Source of the DNA: Actinomycetes bacterium
Lineage (GTDB): Bacteria; Actinomycetota; Actinomycetes; Mycobacteriales; Pseudonocardiaceae
Length of the DNA: 32,977 nt
Reading direction: 5' to 3'
Assembly: GCA_021793175.1 (NCBI GenBank)
Contig: JAJYTH010000036.1
Location: 1 to 32,977, forward strand
Shown here piece after piece: positions 1,986 to 2,194 of this stretch. The position numbers were made by a program, and so were the translations under genes. Under the pieces are notes generated by a model. It was not told the DNA's origin. It saw nothing but the letters and a program-made list of their open reading frames with translations, and did not search any database. Position 1 is the stretch's first letter; every line of letters begins with the position of its first letter.

Positions 1986-2130
1986 CTCCTTCAAAAAGGG
2001 ATTTCCGACAGATCTCTTCGGCCTGTCGAGAAAGTCGGTGAAACCTGTGCTGACCGGCGTTATGGCGAGTACGAGAACACCAGAGATCCCCGCGACGGGG
2101 AGCCGGTCGAGAAGTCAGGCCCCGTCGCGG
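1986..2130 (-). promoter_or_regulatory. leuA leader: hairpin, pseudoknot and sequestered ribosome binding site (LEU element-like)
   Basis: Reading the minus strand toward leuA: an exact 11-bp hairpin pairs CCGCGACGGGG (2130-2120) with CCCCGTCGCGG (2100-2090); its left arm is the end of the leader peptide gene. A second hairpin pairs CGACAG (2028-2023) with CTGTCG (2011-2006), and AGAGATC at its loop (2017-2011) can pair with GATCTCT (2088-2082), which makes a pseudoknot. The leuA ribosome binding site GAAGGAG (1992-1986) is exactly complementary to CTCCTTC, which occurs twice among the leader Leu codons (2147-2141 and 2141-2135). From memory, a conserved pseudoknot called the LEU element was described upstream of actinobacterial leuA; this fits it. 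The switching mechanism is my inference. Confidence 0.75.
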
Positions 2131-2159
2131 CAGCGAAGGAGAAGGAGCGCGAACGCCAC
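2115..2159 (-). CDS. Leucine-rich leader peptide of leuA
   Basis: A 14-codon ORF, GTG to TGA, encoding MAFALLLLRCRDGA. It has four consecutive Leu codons, CTC CTT CTC CTT, in a genome where CTG and CTC would be expected, typical of regulatory codons that make a ribosome pause when charged tRNA-Leu is scarce. An in-frame TAA lies four codons upstream, so the start is fixed at GTG 2159. TAAGCT (2171-2166) lies six bases before the start, so the transcript is probably leaderless and the peptide is translated from the very 5' end. The last codons form the left arm of the leader hairpin and the stop codon falls in its loop. A paused ribosome would cover the CTCCTTC anti-ribosome-binding sequence and the hairpin arm. 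No protein function is implied. Confidence 0.75.
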   Translation of the reverse strand: MAFALLLLRCRDGA

Positions 2160-2165
2160 GGCGCC

Positions 2166-2194
2166 AGCTTAACCTTCGGACGAACCCGCGCAAG
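2166..2194 (-). promoter_or_regulatory. Promoter of the leuA leader
   Basis: On the minus strand TTGCGC (2193-2188) is followed after 16 bp by TAAGCT (2171-2166). The leader peptide GTG begins six bases later, the spacing expected if transcription starts on the start codon. The -10 box fits the actinobacterial TANNNT pattern; the -35 match is only partial (TTG of TTGACA). Confidence 0.5.

Follow-up and report, generated by a model that had tools for sequence, protein, structure and literature searches.

The element analysed here matches the LEU element that Seliverstov et al. (2005, PMC1262725) reported before leuA in most Actinobacteria. Their element combines a pseudoknot and a base stem with a leader in which Leu codons follow one another. 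In the same report, the leuA Shine–Dalgarno (SD) sequence is already given as the pairing partner of the Leu-codon run. Its authors held leader-peptide attenuation to be unlikely in view of mutants of S. coelicolor (Craster 1999) and suggested that a protein binds instead; the mechanism was left open, with the protein binder favoured. In M. smegmatis, translational attenuation is exerted by leaderless Cys-rich ORFs (Canestrari et al. 2020, cited in PMC13236596 and PMC9031893), and the available parts of the two citing papers describe it as Cys-dependent, with stalling on the uORF unmasking the SD. According to the accessible part of PMC8079986, the LeuL1 leader of S. lividans TK24 is transcribed leaderless and has no typical Rho-independent terminator; it is classed there among attenuators, and SD pairing goes unmentioned in that part. 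The ilvB1 transcription attenuator of M. tuberculosis, as presented in the available part of PMC13236596, likewise uses a short BCAA-codon uORF as a sensor of tRNA charging, and Corynebacterium leuA leaders are listed in the parts available of PMC4046766 and PMC5784534. Among the matches listed by our literature search, outside which most of the subscription literature lies, there was no later work on the leuA mechanism or on leuB leaders, and no description of a cassette with exchanged codons.

The window, a stretch of 32,977 nucleotides, carries the gene for 2-isopropylmalate synthase, leuA, on the minus strand (188-1972, ATG at 1972, taken from the list of open reading frames). Upstream of it on the same strand lies a 14-codon leader ORF running from GTG to TGA (2159-2115; codons GTG GCG TTC GCG CTC CTT CTC CTT CGC TGC CGC GAC GGG GCC TGA; peptide VAFALLLLRCRDGA), in which the regulatory Leu codons CTC CTT CTC CTT occupy 2147-2136. 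The -10 hexamer TAAGCT (2171-2166) ends six bases ahead of the GTG, and a weak -35-like hexamer, TTGCGC (2188-2193), was picked out by eye 16 nt before the -10; a scan of 1960-2260 of the window did not find the full version of the sigma-70 consensus. Both the ORF with its four Leu codons and its start six bases after TAAGCT had been reported in a preliminary description of this DNA and could be re-read at these positions. Such a spacing would be compatible with an mRNA that carries the ORF at its very 5' end. We infer from the sequence that transcription starts at or beside the leader GTG, with the mRNA opening with the leader ORF, which is probably leaderless.

The leader RNA contains an H-type pseudoknot formed by two stems, P1 and P2 (all coordinates on the minus strand). 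The exact 11-bp hairpin noted earlier over the end of the leader is indeed there: the 5' arm of P1, CCGCGACGGGG (2130-2120), is made from the last leader codons and forms 11 pairs with the 3' arm, CCCCGTCGCGG (2100-2090), leaving the stop codon in the loop. The pseudoknot that had been placed downstream also exists but is not a separate structure, as the P1 loop itself provides the 5' arm of P2, GACCGGC (2108-2102, directly after the leader stop), which pairs with GCCGGTC (2058-2052). The motif CTCCTTC is found twice in the leader (2147-2141 and 2141-2135), and the coordinates bear out that both copies are fully complementary to the leuA SD, GAAGGAG (1992-1986). The first copy grows to a 9-bp stem, P0, which is part of the minimum-energy fold and in which the anti-SD arm CGCTCCTTC (2149-2141) makes nine Watson–Crick pairs with GAAGGAGCG (1992-1984), the arm containing the SD. 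Pairing and folding predict that the Leu tract of the window would pair with, and hide, the downstream ribosome-binding site. The folding energy of the leader as a whole is unremarkable (z -1.66; 16 of 200 shuffles were as good). The distance from the leader to leuA is 175 in the window (locus L001) and in its nearest relative, L002, versus 117-127 in the other five loci of the same genus. An extra hairpin, CGACAG...CTGTCG (2006-2028), is located between the pseudoknot and the SD within an insertion; L002 has an insertion of similar length and the other five loci of the genus have none.

Classification as a classical transcription attenuator was set aside, as no intrinsic terminator (a stem with a U-tract) was found within 1960-2260 of the window. 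Identity with a known riboswitch or T-box was rejected, as no Rfam family reached its gathering score in the leader, where three weak matches remained below the scores of their families. The sole Rfam match at the gathering threshold in the window is a tRNA gene at 13641-13714 on the minus strand. What the window does contain is a Leu-run leader before leuA, a pseudoknot and a base stem between the Leu run and the leuA SD, i.e. the parts and the position of the LEU element of PMC1262725, with no essential difference. The element of the window is therefore not new; it is a LEU element of the ordinary kind. The conserved pseudoknot before leuA in Actinobacteria that the preliminary description mentions is the one in PMC1262725. 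The use of the regulatory codons as the anti-RBS, which that description thought might be undescribed in combination with translational control, has its pairing of Leu run and SD already in the paper. What we add to the known element is its leaderless placement and a CTT/CTC rule throughout the class, together with covariation on a wider basis. Also added are copies whose codons are exchanged, in front of leuB and orphan LeuA-domain genes, and other copies in front of leuC and leuA paralogues. As to the other systems, as far as the available parts of the sources describe them, the window shares with the poly-Cys ORFs of M. smegmatis a probably leaderless sensor ORF and a run of a single amino acid, and differs in having Leu for Cys, a conserved pseudoknot and, perhaps, sensor codons that are themselves the anti-SD. 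With LeuL1 it has in common MRFGLLLLSCRGEGL, probable leaderless transcription and the lack of a typical Rho-independent terminator. The ilvB1 attenuator uses such a terminator, whereas none was found in 1960-2260 of the window.

A LeuA protein search gave matches in 150/150 genomes of the family and 145/148 genomes of the class, and 199 leuA upstream regions were retrieved from both sets. A script searching for a run of at least three Leu codons, an R-containing end and a stop found a leader with a Leu run in 195/199 loci; among the four misses, no leader was found in L042 and L125, and L137 and L171 have Leu-rich ORFs failing the pattern. In loci of named genomes, some of them of the same species, the leader was present in 79/80, L254 being the miss. 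The genus of the window is represented by seven genomes in the family set, and named relatives by LeuA identity include Prauserella flavalba (88%) and Saccharomonospora iraqiensis (85%). In 193/195 leaders the start codon is preceded at 6-10 nt by a TAnnnT hexamer, versus 30/4065 control ATG/GTG codons, a count that allowed several in-frame starts per leader and so somewhat favours matches. The frame of the codon run thus opens, in 193/195 leaders, with a start positioned for leaderless translation, which speaks against the view that a protein binds the LEU-element RNA in place of codon sensing. Conservation of the peptide as such was rejected, because the residues after the Leu run vary together with compensating bases of P1. 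A covariance model of the element, R1, matched 113/118 genomes of the class. In a draw from the phylum it matched 12/119 genomes, 10 of the 12 in the same class as the window, and a spread of the scaffold beyond the class was rejected on this count. One strong match (G395:C191:4049-4163, 58.8 bits) is in a genome listed under another class of the phylum, for which transfer, contamination or the classification may account. The only other R1 match in the genome of the window (L201; 17.9 bits, E 1.8) lies, by eye, inside a protein-coding stretch and was taken as chance rather than as a second element.

The choice of Leu codons in the run is unusual for these genes. In the 195 leaders, 42% of the Leu codons are CTT, 35% CTC and 23% CTG, whereas in the leuA coding sequences of the same loci CTT makes up 1.1% and CTG 76%. 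The last Leu codon is CTT in 178 leaders, CTC in 17 and CTG in none of the 195; in the 79 named loci it is CTT in 45 and CTC in 34, again never CTG. Pairing alone does not explain this rule, because the third base of the last Leu codon has no partner in the P0 register in 46/88 rows. The identity of the codon thus seems to be maintained in its own right, which would fit the reading of a low-use isoacceptor. Rare codons sharpen leu attenuation in enteric bacteria.

Codon choice also determines how exceptional the P0 stem appears. Of 5000 versions of the leader of the window with Leu codons sampled according to leuA usage, 0.2% paired as well as the natural one; under the leaders' own codon pool 15% did so (p=0.15). 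The use of CTT and CTC rather than CTG therefore carries most of the P0 signal. Over 98 genera, p<=0.05 was reached by 22 under the leuA-usage null and by 6, the chance level, under the leader-pool null. These last two results (p=0.15 in the window and 6/98 genera) would agree with the complementarity being a by-product, whereby rare CTC and CTT codons are picked as sensitive sensors, CTCCTT fits any SD by chance and the working part lies elsewhere, and so would the enrichment of rare codons where no SD match is expected (GTA in 24/35 Val codons of the leaders before other genes). We nevertheless regard a mere by-product as very unlikely in view of two features of P0: own pairs beat swapped pairs, and the third base of the codon is mirrored in the base adjoining the SD core (66/67 for G/C), as detailed below.

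Covariation was analysed in an alignment of 93 rows (A1), with one row per genus except three for the genus of the window, and in one-per-genus tests of 98 of the 99 genera, one having been dropped for length. As the rows are related by descent, the permutation counts given here are not probabilities. P1 is paired in 98.5% of cells in the 93 rows, with changes on both sides in 7 of its 11 pairs, and swapped pairs never did as well as own pairs (0/2000 over 98 genera and 0/2000 over 31 families). The own pairs of P2 beat swapped ones with z 6.3 (0/2000 over 98 genera, 1/2000 over 31 families). For P0, 72.8% of cells of the 93-row alignment are paired in one fixed register; its own pairs beat swapped ones over 98 genera (z 7.0, 0/2000), with counts of 32/2000 in the 41 genera of the family, 2/2000 in the 57 other genera and 55/2000 when one row per family was taken (n=31). 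Both stems of the pseudoknot covary, and the SD stem covaries more weakly. For the SD stem, 318/2000 swaps within the genus of seven pair as well as the own pairs, which tells against the mechanism favoured below.

The longest helix between leader and SD window reaches at least 6 bp in 151/195 leaders and at most 5 bp in 44/195, counted from the first Leu codon, so that the window scores 8 rather than 9; a few of the 44 probably reflect a leuA start wrongly placed by the script. The group with at most 5 bp includes L003, of the same genus as the window, and five fetched loci of genus g31. Loss of the CTCCTTC complementarity with the Leu codons kept, an outcome that the preliminary description had named as telling against its proposal, is thus seen in these 44 leaders and not in the other 151. 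Within the genus, L001, L002, L004, L006 and L010 combine CTCCTTC with GAAGGAG; in L005 both sides have switched together (CTTCTGC with GCAGGAG), and in L003 CTCCTTC is kept while the SD reads TCAGGAG, which breaks the pair. In a table of CTCCTN runs against XAGGAG SDs, which set aside 62/195 loci without AGGAG and 24 without CTCCT and in which a leader with two CTCCT sites enters two rows, CTCCTG occurs with CAGGAG in 66/67 sequences, the other being TAGGAG, a wobble; by genus entries, N=G goes with X=C in 34/35. The rule is loose elsewhere, as the SD partner is A or G for 26/43 CTCCTT runs and G for 6/18 CTCCTC runs. Judged from these sequences, the tracking of the codon third base by the base beside the SD core is the clearest sign of selection on P0.

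We lean, with somewhat better than even confidence, towards a leucine-responsive translational attenuator, a local copy of the actinobacterial LEU element. With ample Leu-tRNA, the ribosome would clear the Leu codons and leave at the TGA six codons on; once it has gone, the P1/P2 pseudoknot would fold, and the freed Leu codons, being the anti-SD, would close the leuA SD by pairing with it. Under a shortage of Leu-tRNA, above all of the isoacceptor reading CTT and CTC, the ribosome would halt on the Leu run; with the anti-SD and the beginning of P1 covered by it, the leuA SD would stay open. Since the last Leu codon and the stop are 6 or 7 codons apart in 176/195 leaders, a terminating ribosome would sit just past the anti-SD. 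Leader, codons, pairings and scaffold can be read from the sequence itself. Pairing, codon choice and leaderless start are backed by comparative data, while stalling, the direction of control and the translational output are what we infer. Masking of the anti-SD by a stalled ribosome, as put forward in the preliminary description, would fit the comparative data best, with the 44/195 leaders that pair with the SD over at most 5 bp standing against it.

A ribosome covers on average the stretch from 13 nt upstream to 15 nt downstream of the P-site, and this footprint was used in a nearest-neighbour fold model without pseudoknots for 87 of the 98 genera, the 11 without a clear SD being left out. 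The mean predicted chance that the SD is unpaired was 0.105 in free RNA; a ribosome at the last Leu codon raised it to 0.263, and a ribosome at the stop gave 0.130. The corresponding values in the window were 0.0002, 0.30 and 0.0024. Predicted SD exposure was greater by more than 0.1 for the stalled than for the terminating ribosome in 46 genera. In 13 of the 87 the model gave the opposite order, which counts against the mechanism. So does the behaviour of S. coelicolor with mutated leader Leu codons, which PMC1262725 reports to be unlike classical attenuation; these old data may be confounded, because mutating the Leu codons would also break the anti-SD. On the supporting side, a uORF before leuA is among the ribosome-protected ORFs of M. 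abscessus in the available part of PMC4974804.

The main rival to translational attenuation, possible though unlikely, is that the same leader acts on transcription: an advancing ribosome would allow RNA polymerase to be halted ahead of leuA by the P1/P2 pseudoknot or by Rho, and a stalled one would prevent this. Short leader RNAs of 85, 65 and 45 nt upstream of leuA in M. tuberculosis, given in the accessible part of PMC3526491, could mean such an early stop of transcription. The better conservation of P1 than of the SD stem (98.5% vs 72.8% of cells paired) points the same way, as do nine leuB copies of the scaffold with a clear leuB start, in which the leader stop lies 187-708 nt ahead of leuB. 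Against transcriptional control stand the lack of an intrinsic terminator in 1960-2260 of the window, the statement in the available part of PMC8079986 that the S. lividans leuA leader is likewise without one, and the covariation of the SD stem. Taken together, the new findings speak for sensing by the ribosome and an output at the level of translation.

The scaffold also occurs before other genes. A second model, consisting of P1 and its loop, matched 112/118 and 60/60 genomes. Forty extra sites away from the main leuA were retrieved. As the scaffold models were built on P1, its pairing in the copies is not independent evidence; frame, promoter and codons are. Seven of the 40 sites look like chance hairpins: L229-L232, L239 and L240 are without a -10 and a short leader, and L222 has no -10 before the nearby ATG/GTG codons. 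Sixteen sites, in families f9, f10, f18, f21, f28, f32 and f35, are found before leuB (L206, L207, L209, L210, L212, L213, L216, L218-L220, L223, L233-L237). The gene was named by NCBIfam in L206 and L207 and by Pfam Iso_dh in L216 and L223, was read from the protein start in ten and was inferred from an IlvE-like ORF behind in L218 and L233; the gene following leuB is ilvE by family search in L209 and looks like ilvE in other copies. The sensors of these leaders read VLIL, VRIL, IFVL, ALIL, LVIL, VLVLI, LVVIA and similar, and TAnnnT stands, by eye, 6-10 nt before the start in 15/16. L235, without a -10 and a readable sensor, was excluded from the codon and SD-pairing tests.

Three sites (f38), with the sensor LLL, precede leuC, identified by NCBIfam in L211, by Pfam Aconitase in L214 and by likeness in L215, and nine precede leuA paralogues (L208 by NCBIfam, the others by tblastn place or likeness). 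Five more (L217, L221, L224, L225 and L238, all f2) are located before orphan proteins of 145-167 residues related to the regulatory (allosteric) domain of LeuA; all four of those scanned gave weak LeuA matches, with Pfam LeuA_dimer just above the cut-off in one and just below it in one, and L238 was assigned by likeness. Their leaders have Val runs, with a start resolved in 3/5; in L217 and L224 a leader start with a -10 could not be resolved, though both Val runs share the frame of the scaffold. Across the leuB-type and orphan leaders, 20 in all, GTA accounts for 24/35 Val codons and ATT for 6/15 Ile codons, vs 12/511 and 7/205, respectively, in 17 of the genes behind. P0 with the SD is visible in some copies (CTCATC/GATGAG in L206, GTCCTTCG/CGAAGGAC in L244), and own vs swapped SD pairing was not significant in the leuB leaders (283/2000, n=15), the orphan set (989/2000, n=5) or the leuA paralogues (365/2000, n=9); the results for leuB and the paralogues tell against the favoured mechanism.

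These copies also bear on the protein binder argued for in PMC1262725 from a phylogenetic match and the S. coelicolor mutants. The codons become Val/Ile/Leu before leuB, or Val before the orphan LeuA-domain genes, while P1 stays, and an RNA bound by a protein would need neither in-frame or exchanged codons nor an excess of rare ones; we consider this explanation quite improbable. The leaderless placement, the rare-codon rule and an exchange of sensor codons while the scaffold stays constant argue for ribosomes as the sensor. It appears likely that the LEU element belongs to a modular, class-wide RNA cassette in which the start is leaderless, the sensor window short and the pseudoknot built from the last codons of the leader. 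This cassette would have been put to use repeatedly, before leuA and its paralogues, leuC, leuB-ilvE and orphan LeuA-domain genes. Its sensor codons would differ between copies (Leu; Val/Leu/Ile; Val), with a preference for rare synonyms (CTT, GTA, ATT), so that one ribosome-driven switch reads the charging of particular isoacceptors. The 2005 report had set codon sensing aside, and the extension to a cassette is the part worth following.

Some further features of the copies were observed. In L219 and L221 the sensor codons pair not with the SD but with a segment just behind the 3' arm of P1 (CTCGTA/TACGAG and GTAGTAGC/GCTACTAC), and this pairing inside the pseudoknot region is possibly a second output. 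Between leader and leuB, a pattern search did not find a short ORF in L233, L234 and L237; such an ORF, conserved, of about 20-45 residues and with endings like ALQEAMDRRDNGGETGH, is present in 12 of the 15 loci checked (L206, L207, L209, L210, L212, L213, L216, L218-L220, L223 and L236). The family of the Val-run leaders before orphan genes, f2, belongs to the same order as the window.
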